Positions 8,378 through 31,507 are shown, numbered from the stretch's first letter. The stretch: 64,000 nt of DNA from Candidatus Nanoarchaeia archaeon (GCA_028279755.1 JANQNB010000008.1:1-64000); one strand, 5' to 3'. The notes: a model not told the origin generated them from the sequence alone. Made by a program: numbers and translations.

Positions 8378-9712
8378 GTGACTGTGAGTCTCCTCGATAC
8401 TGTCCTGCAAAACCTGCCTGAAGTCCAGGCGCCCACTGAGAAGCGGCTGGCGTTCAAGGAGAAGCTGAAATGGACTGCGATCACGCTCGTCCTCTACTTC
8501 CTCCTGGGCATGGTCCCGATCTTCGGGCTCGCCTCGACCGCGCTGGAGCAGTTCGAGTTCTTCGAAATTGTTCTCGGTGCAAGCTTTGGTAGCATCATCA
8601 CCTTGGGTATCGGTCCGATCGTGACCGCGTCGATCGTGCTGCAATTGCTGAACGGTTCCGGCATTGTCAAGTTCGACAGGACGACGCACGAAGGCCGTGC
8701 CCGCTTCCAGGGTATCCAGAAGCTCTTGAGCGTGGCGTTCATCATCCTTGAAGGCATCATCTATGTCGCGACCGGCGGCCTGACTGCGATGCCCGGCATC
8801 CCGGCCTGGATGCTCATCTTCCAATTGTTCCTCGGCGGCATCCTCATCATGTTCATGGACGAAGTCGTGAGCAAGTGGGGCTTCGGCTCAGGCATTAGTC
8901 TGTTCATCGCTGCTGGCGTGTCGAAAGAGATCTTTGTCCGCGCGCTCAGCTGGCTGCCAAGCCCTGCAAACCCTGACGTTCCAGCCGGGCGTATTCCGAG
9001 CCTGATCCAGAGCATCGCAGGCCAGAACCTGACGCAAGCAGGGCTTGATCTTGCGGTGTTGGTCGCCACGGTTGTAGTCTTTCTCGTCGTGGTGTATACC
9101 CAGGCGATGAAAGTGGAAATTCCGTTGAGTTTCGGACGCTTGCGCGGACATGGCGTGCGTTGGCCATTGAATTTCTTCTACACGAGCAACATCCCGGTCA
9201 TCTTGGTCGCCGCATTATTGGCGAACGTGCAGCTTATCGGCAATTGGGTGCCGAGCCTACAATGGCTCTCTGCCATCGTCGGGAATCCGAGCATCCTCGA
9301 GCCTTTAATCACGAACAGTCTTGCCTGGTCGCATATCTGGCAATCAGGCGTGTATCTCCTCTTGTTCATGGCCGGCTCCTTATTGTTCGGCGTATTCTGG
9401 GTCCAGACAGCAGGCCTGGATCCGGCGTCGCAAGCAAAGCAGATCATGGCCTCTGGCTTGCACATCCCTGGCTTCCGCAAGGATCAGCGCGTGCTCGAGC
9501 GCTTGCTCGCGCGCTACATCTGGCCGCTCACCTTTGTCGGCAGCATCGCGGTTGGCTTATTGGCTGCGGTCGCTGACCTGACTGGCGCGCTCGGCCGCGG
9601 CACCGGCATCCTCCTGACGGTCATGATCATCTATCAGCTCTACCAGCAGATCGCGCAACAGCACGTCGCAGACATGAACCCGATGATGCGCAAGTTCATG
9701 GGTGGCCGCTGA
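8378..9712 (+). CDS. secY: Protein translocase subunit SecY
   Basis: Main channel subunit of the Sec translocon. The 444 residues form about ten hydrophobic segments with SecY hallmarks such as FGSIITLGIGPIVTASIVLQ and the C-terminal half motif AKQIMASGLHIPGFRKDQR. It starts with GTG at 8378 (a second in-frame GTG lies at 8384). It follows the ribosomal block, as usual in archaea, but adk, which often follows secY, is absent; the insertase-like gene overlaps by one base instead. Confidence 0.96.
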   Translation: MTVSLLDTVLQNLPEVQAPTEKRLAFKEKLKWTAITLVLYFLLGMVPIFGLASTALEQFEFFEIVLGASFGSIITLGIGPIVTASIVLQLLNGSGIVKFDRTTHEGRARFQGIQKLLSVAFIILEGIIYVATGGLTAMPGIPAWMLIFQLFLGGILIMFMDEVVSKWGFGSGISLFIAAGVSKEIFVRALSWLPSPANPDVPAGRIPSLIQSIAGQNLTQAGLDLAVLVATVVVFLVVVYTQAMKVEIPLSFGRLRGHGVRWPLNFFYTSNIPVILVAALLANVQLIGNWVPSLQWLSAIVGNPSILEPLITNSLAWSHIWQSGVYLLLFMAGSLLFGVFWVQTAGLDPASQAKQIMASGLHIPGFRKDQRVLERLLARYIWPLTFVGSIAVGLLAAVADLTGALGRGTGILLTVMIIYQLYQQIAQQHVADMNPMMRKFMGGR

Positions 9713-10497
9713 TGGTCTTCGAGTTCCTTTCTGAGATGCTGGAGACGATCCTCGACCCGATATTCCGGCCGCTGCTGGCCTTGCCGTATTTCTGGGCGAT
9801 CTTCATCATGGCAGCAGTGATTACTGTCGGCATCACACTCGTGTACAAGTACGCGACTGATCAGGAGCGGATGAAGGAGCTGAAGAAGAAGGTCAAGGAA
9901 TACCAGGAGAAGATGAAAGCGGTGCGGGACCAGCCGGACAAGATGATGAAGCTCCAGAAAGAGGCGATGCAGTACAACATGGAGCTCATGAAACACTCGT
10001 TCAAGCCGACCTTGTACACCATCATCCCCATCTTCATCATTTTCGGATGGCTCAACGCGCACATGGCGTATGAGAGTCTCTCGCCTGGCGAAGAGTTCAC
10101 GATCACCGCAATGATGTCTGAAGGTGTCGATTCGGCAACGCTGTCCTTATTGCCGCCGGAAAACATCACTGTCGACAACGCGACCAAGGACGTCGAAGAA
10201 GGCATCGTCGTCTGGACGCTTAGCGCCGAGGCTGGCACCTACAAGGCGACGATCGACGCTGGCGGCTCGCAGGCAGAGAAGACATTCGTGATCACAACTG
10301 AGCGCGGCGAGTATGAGCAGCCGCTCGAGGCTTACAAAGACAATGCAGTGACGTCTGTGACTATGGGCAATAAGAAGGTCAAGCCGCTCGGCGAGAGCGT
10401 CTCCCTGTTCGGCTGGAAGCCTGGCTGGCTCGGAACATATATCATTCTCAGCATCCTGATCAGCGTCATCTCGAGAAAATTGCTTGGTGTGGTGTAG
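9712..10497 (+). CDS. YidC/EMC3-like membrane insertase (DUF106 family)
   Basis: Archaeal relatives of YidC/Oxa1/EMC3 insert membrane proteins. Here a first membrane helix (about residues 22-44) is followed by a cytoplasmic coiled coil (ERMKELKKKVKEYQEKMKAV), a helix pair near residues 95-115, then an extracytoplasmic part of roughly 115 residues and a last helix (YIILSILISVISRKLLGVV). At 261 residues it is longer than simple DUF106 proteins because of that extracytoplasmic part. It overlaps the secY stop by one base, so both are co-translated. Confidence 0.85.
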   Translation: MVFEFLSEMLETILDPIFRPLLALPYFWAIFIMAAVITVGITLVYKYATDQERMKELKKKVKEYQEKMKAVRDQPDKMMKLQKEAMQYNMELMKHSFKPTLYTIIPIFIIFGWLNAHMAYESLSPGEEFTITAMMSEGVDSATLSLLPPENITVDNATKDVEEGIVVWTLSAEAGTYKATIDAGGSQAEKTFVITTERGEYEQPLEAYKDNAVTSVTMGNKKVKPLGESVSLFGWKPGWLGTYIILSILISVISRKLLGVV

Positions 10498-10507
10498 TAA
10501 TAATTTC

Positions 10508-10525
10508 TATATGGAAAATAATTAC
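10508..10525 (+). repeat. Intergenic motif copy 1 (ATATGGAAAATAATTA)
   Basis: First of five near-identical AT-rich copies in this window. It lies 10 nt after the insertase stop and 15 nt before the TATA box of the L34e-L14e gene, the position expected for an upstream regulator site. Confidence 0.7.
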
Positions 10526-10540
10526 TTTCTTTCCAGTCAC

Positions 10541-10548
10541 CTTTATAA
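10541..10548 (+). promoter_or_regulatory. TATA box of the L34e-L14e gene
   Basis: CTTTATAAA flanked by CAC and GAG. It ends about 47 nt before the ATG, so this gene has a leader of roughly 25 nt, with a GGAG just upstream of the start. Confidence 0.65.
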
Positions 10549-10595
10549 AGAGAACGTCGCTCTCGTGCGTATTCGCTTGGCAGCGGAGTTAGAAA

Positions 10596-11363
10596 ATGGT
10601 TCAAGGAAAATTCAAGAGCAGCAGATTACGCAAACGCAAGGTCAAAGTGCCTGGCGGCCAGACAAAGACGCGCTATCTCGAGCGCAAGCCGAAACAGGCG
10701 CGGTGCGGCACAACCGGCGAAAAACTGCACGGCATCCCACGCATGGGCGCCACGAAAGCGAAGAACACGGCAAAGACCCTGAAGCGACCAGAGCGGCCGT
10801 ATGGCGGCGTGCTTTCCAGCAGGGCGATGCGTGTCAAGATGCGCCAGGAAGCCAAAGTCCTGGCAAAAGGCACGCCAGCAAAGGAGACAGCACTCTTCAG
10901 CGTTGGCAGGCTCTGCCTCAAGATCGCTGGCAGGGATGCAGGCAAGCGCTGCGTCATTGTCGAAGAAGCAAAAGACGGCGTTGTCATGATCGACGGCGAG
11001 ACGCGCAGGCGAAAGTGCAATGTCCGGCACCTCGAACCACTTGTGGATTCGCTGAATGTCAAGAAAGGCGCGACGCATGCCGATGTCGTGAAAGCCTTTG
11101 CAAAGCTGGGTTCTGATCTCAAAGCGAGCAAGCCGAAGAAGGCGGCAGCGAGACCGAAGCGGATCCGCAAGAAGCGCGCGAAGCCGAAGCCTGAAGCTGC
11201 AAAGAAAGCGCCTGCAGCTGAGAAGAAAGCAGCGCCTGCGGCACCTGCAAAAGAGACGCCCGCTGCACCCGCCCAACCGAAGCAGGAAGAGAAGTCCCTC
11301 CCGAAAACAGGCGCGAAGGTGGCTGAGAAAAAACCTGCAGTGAAGGCTCCGGCAAAGAAGTAA
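10596..11363 (+). CDS. Fused ribosomal protein L34e-L14e with Lys/Ala/Pro-rich tail
   Basis: One reading frame joins two ribosomal proteins. Residues about 1-90 are L34e (RYLERKPKQARCGTTGEKL, then TKAKNTAKTLKRPERPYGG). Residues about 100-180 are L14e, with its KOW-like start FSVGRLCLKIAGRDAGKR and the motif RRRKCNVRHLEPL. A roughly 65-residue lysine, alanine and proline-rich tail follows. In other archaea rpl34e, cmk and rpl14e are usually separate and adjacent, so loss of cmk and fusion is the simplest history. No frameshift or stop is seen between the parts. Confidence 0.88.
   Translation: MVQGKFKSSRLRKRKVKVPGGQTKTRYLERKPKQARCGTTGEKLHGIPRMGATKAKNTAKTLKRPERPYGGVLSSRAMRVKMRQEAKVLAKGTPAKETALFSVGRLCLKIAGRDAGKRCVIVEEAKDGVVMIDGETRRRKCNVRHLEPLVDSLNVKKGATHADVVKAFAKLGSDLKASKPKKAAARPKRIRKKRAKPKPEAAKKAPAAEKKAAPAAPAKETPAAPAQPKQEEKSLPKTGAKVAEKKPAVKAPAKK
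11261..11322 (+). repeat. 62-bp linker repeat, copy 1 (coding, in L34e-L14e tail)
   Basis: This stretch encodes AAPAQPKQEEK in the ribosomal tail and matches 42513-42574 on the opposite strand in 57 of 62 positions, including 30 consecutive bases. The two host genes are otherwise unrelated. Confidence 0.85.
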
Positions 11364-24781: not shown

Positions 24782-25984
24782 ATGCAATTGCGGAAGCGCG
24801 GCGCTGATATGCGCACGAGCACGCCCATCCTGGTCCTCCTGGTAGGACTGATCCTCATCCTCTACATCCTCTTCCTGCCGCCTGCAGAGCGCGAAGACCT
24901 GCTCAGCGGCGCGCCCGGCGGCGGCGGCATCGTCGTGCCGCCAGGTGGGGGCCCGATCGGCGGCGGGGTCGTGATCATCGACAAGTATGTCGGCAGTCTC
25001 CACGCGCAAGGACCTGGCGCGATCGAGCACAGCATCCCCAGCACGACGGTCTTTACAGCAGTGAATACCGAAGAGGTCAAGTTCATCGACAGCATGCTGG
25101 TGAAGAAAGGCGCGTTCAGCAACCAGGAAGCGACCTTATCCTTCCGCGCAGACCAGAGCGTCGCGAAGAATTACCTCCTCACCTTCAATGTCGAGGATGC
25201 GAAAGGTCCCTTGCAGATTTTCCTCAATGGTTACCTTATCTTCGAACGCGAGATCACCTCGCGCAGCCCTGAACCGATCAAGCTGCCGCAGGAACACCTT
25301 CAGGTGGACAACGAGATCATGTTCAAATCCGGCAGCGCAGGCTGGACCTTCTGGGAAGCCAACCGGTACCAGCTGCGCAACATCCTCGTGAGCGCGGACG
25401 TGACAAGCTACGAAGGCTCGCGCTCAGAACAGCACTTCACCATCCCGGTCGACGAGTACGAACAGATGGAGAAGGCCACGCTCCAGTTCGTGCCCCAGTG
25501 CGATCCCACGCAGAGCGGCAGGCTCACGATCACTGTCAACGGCCAGCTCCTTTTCGCGGGCTTCATCGACTGCGGTGTCGCGACACGGCAGGACATCGCC
25601 AAGACCGTGCTGAATGCCGGTGACAACGCGATCAGCTTCACGAGCAGCCAAGGCAGCTACCTGCTCGACCACATCCAGGTCACAAGCCAACTCGAAGAGG
25701 GCGACTACCCAGTGTTCTACTTCAACCTGCCGCCAGACATGTTCGAACAAGTGAATGTCTTCGCCGGCAGGATCGTCATGACTTTGCGCTTCACCGAAGG
25801 CAACCAGGCCAAGCGGGGCAGTGTCATCGTGAACGGCTACCAGGACAGCTTCCAGACGAGCAGCTATTACTACCAAGCCACGCTTGACCCGAACGTGCTC
25901 ATCCCTAACGCGAACAGTATCCAGATCATTCCAGAGGGAGCTCCGCTCCACGTTGCGCAACTCCGGGTCGAGCTCCTGGGGTGA
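24782..25984 (+). CDS. Membrane-anchored protein with three beta-sandwich repeats
   Basis: Residues about 10-32 form a single N-terminal membrane helix, followed by a proline/glycine linker. Three similar domains of roughly 90-110 residues follow, each with a central hydrophobic-N-G motif: IFLNGYLIFEREI, ITVNGQLLFAGFI and VIVNGYQDSFQTS. This spacing suggests galactose-binding or jelly-roll-like folds facing outside. Function unknown. The basic KRGAD before the helix could also be a class III (pilin-type) signal, which is a weaker guess. First gene of a five-gene envelope operon. Confidence 0.75.
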   Translation: MQLRKRGADMRTSTPILVLLVGLILILYILFLPPAEREDLLSGAPGGGGIVVPPGGGPIGGGVVIIDKYVGSLHAQGPGAIEHSIPSTTVFTAVNTEEVKFIDSMLVKKGAFSNQEATLSFRADQSVAKNYLLTFNVEDAKGPLQIFLNGYLIFEREITSRSPEPIKLPQEHLQVDNEIMFKSGSAGWTFWEANRYQLRNILVSADVTSYEGSRSEQHFTIPVDEYEQMEKATLQFVPQCDPTQSGRLTITVNGQLLFAGFIDCGVATRQDIAKTVLNAGDNAISFTSSQGSYLLDHIQVTSQLEEGDYPVFYFNLPPDMFEQVNVFAGRIVMTLRFTEGNQAKRGSVIVNGYQDSFQTSSYYYQATLDPNVLIPNANSIQIIPEGAPLHVAQLRVELLG

Positions 25985-26003
25985 TTGACGAGGCGTTCTC
26001 ACC

Positions 26004-27929
26004 ATGGTCAGCATTGAAGAGCTTGCGCGGCGCATCAAGGAACACGAGAAAGCCATTAAGATCATGGAAGGTCGTCGCGATTCCGCAGACGATCCACGAG
26101 CAGTCGACCACGAGGTGGCAGAACGCCTTGGCGCCATCGACCGGCTCACGAAAAAGATCTCCAAACTCAAGTCTGAGAGCGACGCAGTGCGGCGCGCCCG
26201 GGAAAGCTACGAGGGCGATGCTGCTGATTCTGATGATTCCGACGACGAACCTGATGAACCACGGCCGCGCCGCCGCCGCCCAGGATTCTTCGGCAGGATG
26301 CGACGCGGCTACGATCGCGTGAACACACCCTTTGTGCGAGCGCAGCGACGCGCCGGCAGGAAGATGCGCGGCGCTTACGACCGGGTCAACGACCCCTTCA
26401 TGCGCGCCCAGGACCGCGCTGTTGATGCTGTCAAGAACACCGCGCGCAATCTCGACCAGCACGCACATCCCTGGCTCCTGGCCATCGTCGCCATTCTCAT
26501 CCACATCTGGGACGTGCTGAACGAGTTCAGCCGGGGCGGCGACCATCTCCTCCTGATCATCACCGTGTACGTGCTCTTCGCACTCTATGCTGCGCTCTTT
26601 TACTACCGCACCGGGTGGGAGAAAGACAGCCTCCAGTATTTCGGCATCAGCCTGCTCGCCATCGTCCTGCCGCTCATCTTCCGGCTGCCGATACTCGGCG
26701 AGTTCTTCGGACGCTCAGACTACCTCCCAGTATTGCTCATGGTCATGCCGGTCTGGTTCCTCTACATCGCGCTGCACGAGAAACAGGACCAGAGCCTGCA
26801 CTGGACTGGCAAGATCCTGATCTACATTATCATCATCGCCCTGGTCATCATCGGGCTGGGTATGTTCACGCTTCCTGACGTGTTCACCAGCACGGAGCGC
26901 GTGCAAATCGGGCAGGCCTGGAACCGTGTCTGGAACGACATCAAGGACGGTTTCCAGACGATCAAGGAACGCATGGGCGCCATCCTCGACATCGACGAAT
27001 GGCAGGTGAAATTCGAGAAGACCTTCAACCCGGCGATGGCATACTATACCGGCGAGGTCGAAGACAATAAGGAAGAGCCGCACGGCGTGTACATCACGCG
27101 CTGGGAAAGCCTGTATCCGACCACGTACGTCGGGAGCGACCCGAAATTCCTCGGTCGTTTGGAAGCGAAGACATTTATTCCTGGCGGACTCAGCTTGACA
27201 CCAGGATGCCGGCTCACACGTGCAGGCAAGACTGGCGGTTGGAAAGGCGAGGTCGACACTGGCAACGAGCCCATCGAGGTGAACAAGCTCATCACCCGCG
27301 ACATCCTCTGCACGTTCGAGAGCAACGAGAGCATGACCCAAGGCAGCTACACTGCCGCGATGGGCATCGAATTCCCGTTCGAGACCTGGGCCTACATCAC
27401 GAACACGTTCGTCTCCCGGCAATTGCTCGAGCAATACCTGCTCCAGGACCGGGACATCAACCGCGAGCTCGACATCCCACGAACGACCGAAGCAGTGTTC
27501 ACGAACGGCCCGGTCATGGTCGGCGTGCTCGCGCCAGAGCAGCCGATCGATGTGGACCCGGAAGCGCGGCAGCCGGTCAAGCAACGCTTCGGTTTTACGC
27601 TCGACGACCGCTGGACCCAAGGGCATTTCGAGGAATTCATCGAGACGCAAGTCCTCGTGCCCGAACCCTTCCTGCTGGAGGAATGCGAACCAGTCCAGCC
27701 AGGCACGCCCGCAAGTGCAGACGGCATCAGGACCTACTCATTCGTCAGGTCGCCAGAGTATGATCCCCGTCTCGAATTGCGCACGATCACCTGCCAGCTC
27801 GTGCTGCCGGATAAGGCGGCGGCAGAGCGCGTCATCGCCTTTGGCGATAAGACACCAGTGACGTTTGTTGTCATCGCAAAATATAATTACGTGATCGAGA
27901 AAGAACAACGCATCAGGATAGAAGAATGA
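26004..27929 (+). CDS. Multipass membrane protein with coiled coil and large outer domain
   Basis: Not a known family. Residues 1-65 are a predicted coiled coil, 70-90 are acidic, and 101-114 and 122-136 repeat the pattern RGYDRVN-x-PF-x-RAQ. About five membrane helices lie between residues 155 and 305. The remaining roughly 330 residues form a soluble, probably extracytoplasmic domain with few cysteines. The start follows the preceding gene by 19 nt and the end overlaps the next lipoprotein gene by 4 nt, so it is central to the operon. Confidence 0.7.
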   Translation: MVSIEELARRIKEHEKAIKIMEGRRDSADDPRAVDHEVAERLGAIDRLTKKISKLKSESDAVRRARESYEGDAADSDDSDDEPDEPRPRRRRPGFFGRMRRGYDRVNTPFVRAQRRAGRKMRGAYDRVNDPFMRAQDRAVDAVKNTARNLDQHAHPWLLAIVAILIHIWDVLNEFSRGGDHLLLIITVYVLFALYAALFYYRTGWEKDSLQYFGISLLAIVLPLIFRLPILGEFFGRSDYLPVLLMVMPVWFLYIALHEKQDQSLHWTGKILIYIIIIALVIIGLGMFTLPDVFTSTERVQIGQAWNRVWNDIKDGFQTIKERMGAILDIDEWQVKFEKTFNPAMAYYTGEVEDNKEEPHGVYITRWESLYPTTYVGSDPKFLGRLEAKTFIPGGLSLTPGCRLTRAGKTGGWKGEVDTGNEPIEVNKLITRDILCTFESNESMTQGSYTAAMGIEFPFETWAYITNTFVSRQLLEQYLLQDRDINRELDIPRTTEAVFTNGPVMVGVLAPEQPIDVDPEARQPVKQRFGFTLDDRWTQGHFEEFIETQVLVPEPFLLEECEPVQPGTPASADGIRTYSFVRSPEYDPRLELRTITCQLVLPDKAAAERVIAFGDKTPVTFVVIAKYNYVIEKEQRIRIEE

Positions 27930-29140
27930 AACGACTGCTCGCACTCACACTCGTCCTGCTCCTCGCAGCCTGCGGCGGGCCCTCACAACCAGAATACCAC
28001 GTCGGCACCGAAGGCGTAGTGCTCAGCTTTGCCCACGACACGCCGCCGCGCGAGGTGTACGAGGACAGCAGGATCCCCGTACTGCTGGAAGTGAGCAATC
28101 TCGGCGCATGGGACGTGCGTTTCGAGGACATCGTGGTCAACCTCACCGGCGACCCGTTCTACGTCGCGGTCCAGAACGCGAGAATGCCCAAGGACCAGCA
28201 GCCCTACGCGCTCGACCCAGTATTGTACGGCAAGCAGCCAGGCTATCCTGAGGGCGAGTTCATCACGATCCAGCCGAACGTCACGATACTGAACGTGACC
28301 GGGCCGCGCGAACAGCCACGAACGCAATTGTTCGCCACGATCTGCTATCCCTACGCGACCGTGCTCGGCACGACCGTATGCGTCGACAGCAACGCGTACA
28401 ACCAGAACGAGCAACGCCAGGTGTGCAGCGCAACCACGCTCACCTATCGCAGCCAGGGCGCACCAGTGGCTGTCGTCAGCATCGAGAACCGCCCAGCGCC
28501 CATCAGGGTGAGCCAGAGTGGCGGCAGGGGCTATGTCGACGTGGTGCAGCCGACCTTCATCGTCCATGTCGAGAACCTCGGCACTGGTCGCGTGCTGCAA
28601 CCGATCCCTGACGCGTACAGCGAACGCCTCGCAGTGTGCGGCGGCCATATCACGACCGAGAACCTGAACAAGATCGAGATCAACGCCACGCTGAGCGGCA
28701 TCCAGCTGGACTGCCAGCCCTGGCCGATCGAACTCCGCGACGACAAAGGATACACGACCTGCGTGGTGCCGCCGAGCGAGACCAGCGCGCTCAGCCCGAG
28801 CAACTACCTCGGCGCCCTGAAACTGACGCTCAGCTATATGTACCAAGACAGCACGAGCGCAGACATCAGCATCCTCCGCCGCGGCTATGTCGGCGACTGG
28901 GACGATTACACGATACCGGAACGGGACGACCACCCTGGCTTCATCGAGGGCGAGGCGAAATGCGAGTATTGCCAGCGCAACCCGAGCGACAGCCGATGCG
29001 ACTGGCCTGACAACGTCAACCAGAGCAGGTACTTCCAATGCGTGTGCGGCAAGGAAGAATGCCGAGACAAGGCGCCTGATGGAGAGTGCATCTTCGGCAC
29101 GACCTGGTGCCCAGGCAGCAACTACTGTTGCGTGAGATGA
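27926..29140 (+). CDS. Lipoprotein, paralogue 1 of three
   Basis: Signal peptide ends in lipobox LLAAC (Cys at about residue 16). The mature N-terminus has the shared pattern GxEGVVLSF, then PPREVYEDSRIPVLLEVSN, found in modified form in the next two genes. Two Ig/CARDB-like beta domains follow, and the last 65 residues are rich in cysteine (CEYCQRN, CVCGKEEC, CPGSNYCC). It starts inside the stop of the membrane gene (ATGA). Function unknown; role in the envelope is inferred. Confidence 0.75.
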   Translation: MKRLLALTLVLLLAACGGPSQPEYHVGTEGVVLSFAHDTPPREVYEDSRIPVLLEVSNLGAWDVRFEDIVVNLTGDPFYVAVQNARMPKDQQPYALDPVLYGKQPGYPEGEFITIQPNVTILNVTGPREQPRTQLFATICYPYATVLGTTVCVDSNAYNQNEQRQVCSATTLTYRSQGAPVAVVSIENRPAPIRVSQSGGRGYVDVVQPTFIVHVENLGTGRVLQPIPDAYSERLAVCGGHITTENLNKIEINATLSGIQLDCQPWPIELRDDKGYTTCVVPPSETSALSPSNYLGALKLTLSYMYQDSTSADISILRRGYVGDWDDYTIPERDDHPGFIEGEAKCEYCQRNPSDSRCDWPDNVNQSRYFQCVCGKEECRDKAPDGECIFGTTWCPGSNYCCVR

Positions 29141-29177
29141 GAAAAAGTTTAAAAATCACAAGGACGAGGAGACGAGT

Positions 29178-30428
29178 ATGAAACGAGTGATCGCTGGAGT
29201 GCTGATTCTGGCCGTGCTGCTCACTGCCTGCGGCGGATTCCGGCGTGGCAACGACAACCAGTACTACGATCCGGTACGGGCCCGGTATTTCGAAGGGCAC
29301 GACGGCGTACAGATGTTCTTCGATCAGATACCGCCACGGCTCTTCTATTACGGCAACGCGCCGCAGAGCGCGGCCAACGACTTCCCGGTGAGCATCGAGC
29401 TCCGCAACGAAGGCTCGAGCTATACGCGCGGCGGCATCTTCCTCTCAGGGTATGATCCCAACCTGATCATGTTTGACGAGATCCCCATCGCGATGAGCTT
29501 TCCTGGCGCCTGCAGCTTCAGGATCGGCGACTGGAGCCTGAACGAGCTCGGCTTCTTCGTGCAATGCGGCGACGACTTCACCTGGCGGGGCAGCGAAGAG
29601 AACCTGATCGACATGATCAGCTTCCACGGCATCACATGGTTCGACGACATCCTCGGCGACATCGACTTCATGTACCAGAACACTGGCGCAGGCGACCGCT
29701 GGGACATCAACTTCGGCGGCATGGACATTGGCCTGCGCGAGCACGGGCTCGCGTTGATCGCAACCCTCTCAGGCCTGAGCTTCAACAAGTTCCTCGGCCG
29801 CGAGTATGTCCTTGCCGGCGATACGTATGAGTATCCTGGCGGCGAGATCGAATACGTCGAGTTCAACGGTCATATCATCAACTGGCCGCAAGGCACTGAC
29901 GAGATCGACCAGACCTTCCTTGTCACAAACTGCTACATGTACACGACCTTTGCAGCGCCGACGGTCTGTATCGACCCGCAGCCGTACAGCGAGAACCGCA
30001 AGGTGTGCAATCCTCAAGTGGCCACCTGGGGCCGGGGACAAGGCGCGCCCGTAGCAGTGACACGCGTCACGCAGGAAAACACGCCACGCACCGCAGTGTT
30101 CCACATCGAGGTCGCGAACATGGGCCAAGGCACAGTTTATGATGCAGGCATGCTCGAGAAGTGCAGTCCGTACTATCCTGGCGGTGCGCGTTCGTCTGAC
30201 TTGAACATCATCTGGTTTCCGGACGTGCGCATCAACAACCGCGGCCTGGATTGCACGCCACGCCACTTTGTCAGGCTGGATCAAAGCGGCAGGGGCAGTT
30301 TCACCTGCACCTATCCTATTGAATACGCTGAGCTGAACAGTGCGTACCAGACTCCACTTGTGATTGAGCTCTGGTACGGGTACAGCGAAACCATGGAACG
30401 ACGCGTGCGGGTCAAGCGCGTCACGTAA
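29178..30428 (+). CDS. Lipoprotein, paralogue 2 of three
   Basis: Signal peptide with lipobox LLTAC (Cys at about residue 18). The mature part begins with GHDGVQMFFDQIPPRLFYYG, matching its neighbours in position and pattern, followed by beta-rich domains with paired cysteines (CTYPIEYAELN near the end). Unlike paralogue 1 it lacks the cysteine-rich C-terminal region. A GTTTAAAAA TATA-like element ends 22 nt before the ATG, so it can also be transcribed separately. Confidence 0.75.
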   Translation: MKRVIAGVLILAVLLTACGGFRRGNDNQYYDPVRARYFEGHDGVQMFFDQIPPRLFYYGNAPQSAANDFPVSIELRNEGSSYTRGGIFLSGYDPNLIMFDEIPIAMSFPGACSFRIGDWSLNELGFFVQCGDDFTWRGSEENLIDMISFHGITWFDDILGDIDFMYQNTGAGDRWDINFGGMDIGLREHGLALIATLSGLSFNKFLGREYVLAGDTYEYPGGEIEYVEFNGHIINWPQGTDEIDQTFLVTNCYMYTTFAAPTVCIDPQPYSENRKVCNPQVATWGRGQGAPVAVTRVTQENTPRTAVFHIEVANMGQGTVYDAGMLEKCSPYYPGGARSSDLNIIWFPDVRINNRGLDCTPRHFVRLDQSGRGSFTCTYPIEYAELNSAYQTPLVIELWYGYSETMERRVRVKRVT

Positions 30429-30430
30429 AC

Positions 30431-30438
30431 ATTTATAA
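30431..30438 (+). promoter_or_regulatory. TATA box upstream of lipoprotein paralogue 3
   Basis: ATTTATAA just after the stop of paralogue 2; a GGAGGT ribosome binding site at 30462-30467 precedes three tandem ATG codons. Confidence 0.6.
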
Positions 30439-30469
30439 ATAAGCTTCCCAAATGGGCTATTGGAGGTCG

Positions 30470-31507
30470 ATGATGATGAGATATGTGCTCGCAATCGTGA
30501 TTGCTTCACTCTTCCTAATCGCCAGCTGTGGCGAAACCGGACCGGTCAACCCGGCAATTGACGTGCCGTTCATCGGCGGCAATGACGGCGTCGAAATGGG
30601 CCTGATCGACGGTATGCCACCTGCTGCTGTGTATGACGGCGACCGCATGACCTTTGGCATCGGCGTCGCGCTCAAGAACGTGGGCGAGGCCGACATCGGT
30701 CCGAGCTCCACGTACAATAACACTCATCTGGAAGTCACAGTCCAGGGATTCCCGCCGAGCGTGTTCGGCGTCACATCCGGCAATCTCACGCAGGACCTTG
30801 ACGATCGCACCTTGCTGGGTGCGAAGAAGAACTTCGACGGCTCGATCCTTGACGGACAATTGCAACGTGTGACCTTCAACGGGCTTGCCTACCAGGGCGT
30901 GCTGCAGGGCAATTATGTCCAGAACTTCCTCGTGAACCTGTGCTACGACTACAGCAATGTCGCGACAGTACCGGTCTGCTTCAAGGACGACGTGATCGAG
31001 AACATCGAGGACGTGCAGATCTGCACACTCACTGGAGAAAAGCACCCGCAGAATAGTGGCGGGCCGATCCATGTGACAAGCGTGGTGCAGAACCCACTGG
31101 ATCCGCACGAGGTCATGGTGAACTTCGTGATCGAGCACGTCGGCACTGGTGACTTCTACGGCCGTGGCTCCGGCGACTTCCCTTGGAGCATGCCGCCGGT
31201 TGATGGAGAAACCTGCGACCCGAGCATCACGAACACGAACAAGTACCGCCTCGGCATCGAGCTCAGCGCTGACACTGGCAGCGACATGGAGATCCGCTGC
31301 AGCAACTTCGGCGATGGCAGCCGCGGTGTCGTGACCTTGTACCAAGGAGCGCCCACGACCGTGACGTGCACGCTTACCGGCAGCCTTGTCGGCAACACAG
31401 CCGAGCGGCCGTACACAGAGTTGCTGACGATCACCACCTGGTACCGCTACGGCGAAAGCCTGGTGCAGCCAGTCGTGATCCAGGCAGTCGGTGCACGCGA
31501 CGAGTAA
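30470..31507 (+). CDS. Lipoprotein, paralogue 3 of three
   Basis: Signal peptide with lipobox IASC (Cys about residue 21). It carries the shared mature start GNDGVEMGLIDGMPPAAVYD and beta-rich domains with GVALKNVGEAD and CYDYSNVATVPVC. Three consecutive ATG codons (30470, 30473, 30476) follow a GGAGGT tract; spacing favours the second or third. It closes the envelope operon. Function unknown. Confidence 0.75.
   Translation: MMMRYVLAIVIASLFLIASCGETGPVNPAIDVPFIGGNDGVEMGLIDGMPPAAVYDGDRMTFGIGVALKNVGEADIGPSSTYNNTHLEVTVQGFPPSVFGVTSGNLTQDLDDRTLLGAKKNFDGSILDGQLQRVTFNGLAYQGVLQGNYVQNFLVNLCYDYSNVATVPVCFKDDVIENIEDVQICTLTGEKHPQNSGGPIHVTSVVQNPLDPHEVMVNFVIEHVGTGDFYGRGSGDFPWSMPPVDGETCDPSITNTNKYRLGIELSADTGSDMEIRCSNFGDGSRGVVTLYQGAPTTVTCTLTGSLVGNTAERPYTELLTITTWYRYGESLVQPVVIQAVGARDE

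Follow-up and report, generated by a model that had tools for sequence, protein, structure and literature searches.

A conserved five-gene surface cassette of Woesearchaeales that may present exchangeable wall-binding and wall-cutting modules to neighboring bacteria

Large proteins with a murein transglycosylase domain (fam00969, Module 98) have been reported in Woesearchaeota and Pacearchaeota (Castelle et al., 2021; PMC8204110). According to the accessible sections of that article, these proteins resemble the locus described here in that they occur in the same archaea, contain lytic transglycosylase domains, and have been proposed to function in attachment to the bacterial wall. However, they are individual proteins that reach 3000 aa, whereas our locus, a five-gene cassette, is a carrier with six enzyme families at one site; the two are compared here by description, and fam00969 could include P2, the second protein of the cassette. 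Haloarchaeal peptidoglycan hydrolases have been reported to kill bacteria, and hydrolases to be abundant in Nanoarchaeota (Strock et al., 2025; PMC12352652). The enzyme classes are those found in the cassette, and a foreign target was inferred on the same grounds, as archaea do not have peptidoglycan. In the available portions of the article, the tested enzymes derive from the haloarchaeon Halogranum salarium and were heterologously produced, and its main text contains neither the word "operon" nor the word "transmembrane." From Lake A, "vampiristic" Woesearchaeota with GH23 and tlyC have been described as presumed predators (Vigneron et al., 2022; PMC9723730). The lineage, the lytic transglycosylase, and the predation hypothesis are shared with our case, but the accessible part of the study gives domain counts only and describes no carrier complex.

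Two further groups of systems share features with the cassette. In bacterial conjugation and CPR type IV secretion (VirB1, VirB6), a membrane protein and a wall hydrolase are found together, as in the cassette, but the cassette proteins have no detectable homology to these systems. RbmA, the MSCRAMM adhesins, and WxLIP, which were the best Foldseek matches, also display two surface beta-sandwich domains, but with TM-scores mostly of 0.1-0.3, the similarity reflects a generic fold class and not the same family. No account of the cassette as a carrier was found in searches of open-access literature, including the accessible sections of the three articles cited above. The carrier chassis appears to be new; wall hydrolases of Woesearchaeota are already known.

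The cassette occupies positions 24782-31507 of the window (the whole 64,000-nt stretch of DNA that was analyzed). A first-pass annotation had described it as an operon of five envelope genes, and an ORF check confirmed that all five lie on the + strand at the coordinates given below, with intergenic gaps of 19, -4, 37, and 41 bp in gene order. A single operon is unproven, because candidate archaeal TATA-like boxes are found not only before P1 (24751-24760) but also before LB (about 29149-29157) and LC (about 30432-30440). LB and LC may be transcribed separately as well. The annotation had also stated that none of the proteins matches a known system, which holds for Pfam, NCBIfam, and PDB sequences: scans of all five window proteins against Pfam and NCBIfam and a search of PDB sequences gave nothing above cut-off. 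Matches to CBM_35, SelW/Rdx, MerC, TolR, presenilin, and ion channels were dropped, as they were sub-threshold or compositional (hydrophobic stretches).

P1 (24782..25984, + strand), which the annotation had described as a triple-repeat anchored beta protein, is predicted to be a surface protein with a single N-terminal transmembrane (TM) segment as anchor. A linker rich in Gly/Pro leads from this segment to the three beta repeats, at about 25094-25405, 25406-25717, and 25718-25981 (+ strand). In hhalign comparisons based on 76 homologs, the probabilities were 97.9% for R1/R2, 91.3% for R2/R3, and only 6.6% for R1/R3. P1 homologs were found in 136 of 147 near-complete genomes of the phylum. 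Assignment to CBM35 or galactose-binding-like domains reached 19.3 bits, below the Pfam cut-off of 28. A lipoprotein encoded elsewhere in the same genome (L235:1585-2424:-; G000:C7) is partly similar to P1 and is a possible second copy of the P1 repeats.

The last three genes encode LA (P0003; 27926..29140), which overlaps P2 by 4 bp, LB (P0004; 29178..30428), and LC (P0005; 30470..31507), all on the + strand. Each has a signal peptide, a lipobox, and the previously noted pattern G-x-[DE]-G-V followed by PP and VY, and the lipobox Cys is present in nearly all homolog rows of all three. Their paralogy, likewise suggested earlier, exceeds chance by a wide margin in pairwise profile comparison, with hhalign E values of 3e-67 (LA/LB), 2e-35 (LA/LC), and 9e-41 (LB/LC). 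When the window organism's own genome was searched with P0003, the two neighbors LB and LC were the only matches. In a tree of 260 lipoprotein homologs, LC, the most conserved protein of the set, formed a clean clade, LB a clade holding 83 of 87, and LA a weakly supported group of 93 together with 3 stray LBs. Since the sequences thus sort by gene, completely for LC, almost completely for LB, and, apart from the three stray LBs, for LA, the duplication of the lipoproteins is old. In two loci (L064 and L086), a second LC-type lipoprotein gene closes the cassette.

P2 (26004..27929, + strand) begins with a charged, coiled, basic N-terminus predicted to be cytoplasmic, continues with five predicted TM segments at about residues 154-290, and ends in a 300-residue outer domain (27036..27926, + strand), in agreement with its earlier description as a multipass protein with a large outer domain. 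AlphaFold models of this outer domain (pLDDT 89.7, pTM 0.82) and of LC (pLDDT 89.8, pTM 0.84) both consist of two beta-sandwich domains, each closing with a strand of ~24 residues. In hhalign, the outer domain matched LC with a probability of 73% (E 3e-5), LA with 60% (E 9e-5), and LB with 5%; the unrelated P1, included for comparison, gave 3%. The shared predicted layout and the hhalign matches to LC and LA make it probable that P2 contributes a fourth copy of the lipoprotein unit, tethered to the membrane. Foldseek searches with the two models returned only generic tandem Ig-like proteins. The C-terminus of P2 would be displayed outward, as judged from five TM segments after a cytoplasmic N-terminus and from conserved cysteines.

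The relatives of the window organism are Candidatus Woesearchaeota and include the GW2011_AR15 chromosome. A search for related loci with P0003 alone found nothing, and the P1-subset search yielded 30 named loci. An LA-type protein was present in 53 of the 59 relatives and in 33 of the 34 near-complete ones, and P2 was present in 138 of 174 genomes of the order. We looked for relatives in which the genes are unlinked or individually replaced and found none: each of the 101 cassette loci has its recovered genes on one strand and in the order P1-P2-LA-LB-LC. All five genes were recovered in 76 of these loci, and many of the remaining loci end at contig edges. The P2 and LA genes usually overlap (72 of 95 loci; median, -4 bp). 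The cassette is often flanked upstream by a pelota gene that points the opposite way and downstream by a gene for the RFC small subunit. In other orders of the class, the cassette comprises P1, two or three lipoproteins, and a P2 that is shorter. The cassette is a fixed surface gene set in almost all Woesearchaeales examined, with shorter versions class-wide.

This constancy of the core is combined with variable C-termini. Extensions beyond the core were found in 52 of 100 P2 homologs, 16 of 96 LA homologs, and 4 of 89 LB homologs, and in none of 81 LC or 95 P1 homologs, LC being payload-free throughout. At 23 of 100 loci, the C-terminus of P2 or LA carries a peptidoglycan hydrolase that scores over the Pfam cut-off, and these belong to six unrelated families: SLT (12 loci), Glucosaminidase (GH73; 4), M23 (3), NlpC/P60 (2), Amidase_2 (1), and M15_4 (1). 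Further extension modules are fn3, PKD, Ig-like, or Cys-rich. The catalytic motif is kept in most SLT, GH73, Amidase_2, and M15 modules and in two of three M23 modules, the catalytic residues of L105 and L078 being judged by eye. The SLT module of L107, the M23 module of L082, and the NlpC module of L092 appear degenerate and lack catalytic residues, which points to binding. Contamination was rejected as a source of the hydrolases at loci whose carrier, P2 or LA, sits inside a syntenic archaeal cassette; many of these cassettes have pelota and RFC at their flanks.

Hydrolase domains are concentrated at the cassette. Among the matches listed for five families in 174 genomes, 30 of about 314 were linked to the cassette, compared with 1.8 expected from the cassette's share of an assumed 1.2-Mb genome. 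Because the genomes counted are related, the enrichment probability is inflated; for this reason, and because of the hand-counted match totals, an SLT set limited to the matches listed, and the assumed genome size, it is only indicative. For Glucosaminidase, 4 of the 8 matches over cut-off in the 174 genomes lie within P2. Payloads also change between related species. On the cassette tree, 24 labeled loci, one of which (L141) is below the Pfam cut-off, need at least 20 changes of payload state. Within one genus, the P2 cores of L074 (amidase) and L097 (NlpC/P60) are 47% identical and their tails are unrelated; in a second same-genus pair, L141 (sub-threshold SLT) and L148 (GH73), the cores are 40% identical and the tails are again unrelated. 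The payload pattern is, like the gene set, seen directly in the genomes.

Matches to Mur_ligase_M mostly consisted of one FolC-sized protein per genome, as in control archaea, and the multi-gene Mur ligase set was absent in nearly all of 117 genomes. Because these archaea lack the Mur-ligase pathway, gene content indicates that the order should make no peptidoglycan and that the substrate of the payloads should be a foreign bacterial wall. Strong Mur-ligase matches were observed in three genomes (three in G013, two in G118, and one large match in G082), and these possibly represent contamination or partial peptidoglycan genes.

On balance, we favor, with some reservation, the interpretation that the five proteins constitute one surface assembly, in which a conserved scaffold presents exchangeable wall-binding or wall-cutting modules to neighboring bacteria; both the physical complex and the antibacterial role are what we infer. 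P2, with five TM segments, and P1, with one, would anchor the assembly in the membrane. The outer domain of P2 together with LA, LB, and LC would provide homologous two-beta-sandwich units that may associate into an external scaffold. Lineages would swap modules at two outward-facing payload sites, the C-terminus of P2 and that of LA, which is translationally coupled to P2. The assembly would contact and bind the walls of neighboring bacteria, either hosts or prey, with local cutting in many species. The core scaffold would serve attachment, and the payload would fit it to particular partners. About three quarters of the sampled loci, including that of the window, have no recognizable cassette hydrolase, and none was found in seven large proteins of cassettes belonging to other orders of the class. 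The ancestral function of the core was therefore probably not wall cutting; as the core is kept where the hydrolase is missing, attachment or scaffolding is its probable function. The annotation's suggestion of a membrane complex with three related outer lipoproteins is thus partly supported; it did not include the probable fourth copy in P2, the spread of the set through the order and, in shorter versions, the class, or the exchangeable hydrolases of relatives.

A more far-reaching version, which we regard as tentative, is that Woesearchaeales and, in a simpler form, much of the class have a surface organelle that is dedicated to interaction with bacteria and is passed on vertically. It would consist of four homologous beta-sandwich subunits, with fixed C-terminal positions that hold a fast-exchanged warhead or binding module. 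Its logic would be comparable to effector exchange in polymorphic toxins or at the T6SS tip, but the chassis is unrelated. The lifestyle and partners of the uncultured Woesearchaeales are a long-standing open question, and a near-universal surface assembly with bacterial-wall enzymes at its variable ends would make it testable. The payload type would then predict the bacterial partners and the bond that is cut, defined proteins would be available to express, localize, and use as attachment markers, and the known but scattered wall hydrolases of Woesearchaeota would gain a common carrier.

The distribution of the cassette also raises the possibility, which we consider rather unlikely, that it is the archaeon's own housekeeping envelope scaffold, serving surface-layer anchoring, pseudoperiplasm architecture, or protein handling, and that the hydrolase fusions are occasional additions to a convenient anchor. 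It is near-universal in the order, a shorter form is present class-wide, including in hydrolase-free lineages, and its position beside the core genes for pelota and the RFC small subunit is fixed. In addition, most loci lack a hydrolase payload. However, a purely housekeeping role would have to explain why six enzyme families were recruited repeatedly to one site, why enzymes are swapped within genera, and why the enrichment is strong, and the variable ends face outward.

The enzyme mix, which spans glycan and peptide bonds, would also suit nutrient scavenging, in which surface enzymes digest dead bacterial walls for muropeptide uptake and living cells are not attacked. Woesearchaeota are indeed predicted to be scavengers in the accessible sections of two articles (Castelle et al., 2021, PMC8204110; Vigneron et al., 2022, PMC9723730). 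Nevertheless, the degenerate or non-catalytic payloads (Cys-rich, Ig-like) of many species suit binding more than feeding, and no uptake genes were seen within the five-gene unit, which makes this explanation improbable. Least probable of all is a channel for transfer or secretion, comparable to VirB6 with the VirB1 lytic transglycosylase or to a CPR type IV secretion system, in which the hydrolase breaches the partner's wall so that DNA or protein can pass. A multipass P2 with SLT, NlpC/P60, or M23 resembles the parts list of a conjugation machine and the lipoproteins could form an external collar, but Pfam scans matched neither VirB6/TrbL nor any other T4SS part in P2 and its relatives, P2 of other orders has one TM segment, and the five genes sit among information-processing genes, with no secretion ATPase standing out when the flanking genes were mapped.

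The surface assembly presenting exchangeable modules would take a particular form in the window species, with a Cys-rich payload on the cassette and wall-cutting enzymes encoded elsewhere. A peptidoglycan hydrolase domain on an exported protein was found in the cassettes of relatives and was absent from the window cassette in Pfam and NCBIfam scans. The window P2 has no C-terminal extension, and LA ends in a Cys-rich module (28952..29137, + strand) that is common to 16 LA homologs. In L066, of the same family, the Cys-rich module is followed by an SLT domain. In L117, HMM matches to the module numbered up to 8, of which six or seven were positive; the LA homolog of this locus (L117:4231-6957) has a 584-residue tail of repeated Cys-rich modules with 66 Cys, which is possibly an adhesive array. 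Elsewhere in the genome of the window organism, directly after two small TM-anchored proteins, lies a gene for a protein of 884 residues with one N-terminal TM segment and M23 and SLT domains (L233:1555-4206; G000:C22, about 8554-11205). This is a second locus for surface wall hydrolases in the organism. A second SLT-domain protein, of about 600 residues, is encoded at L234:1683-3485:- (G000:C23).
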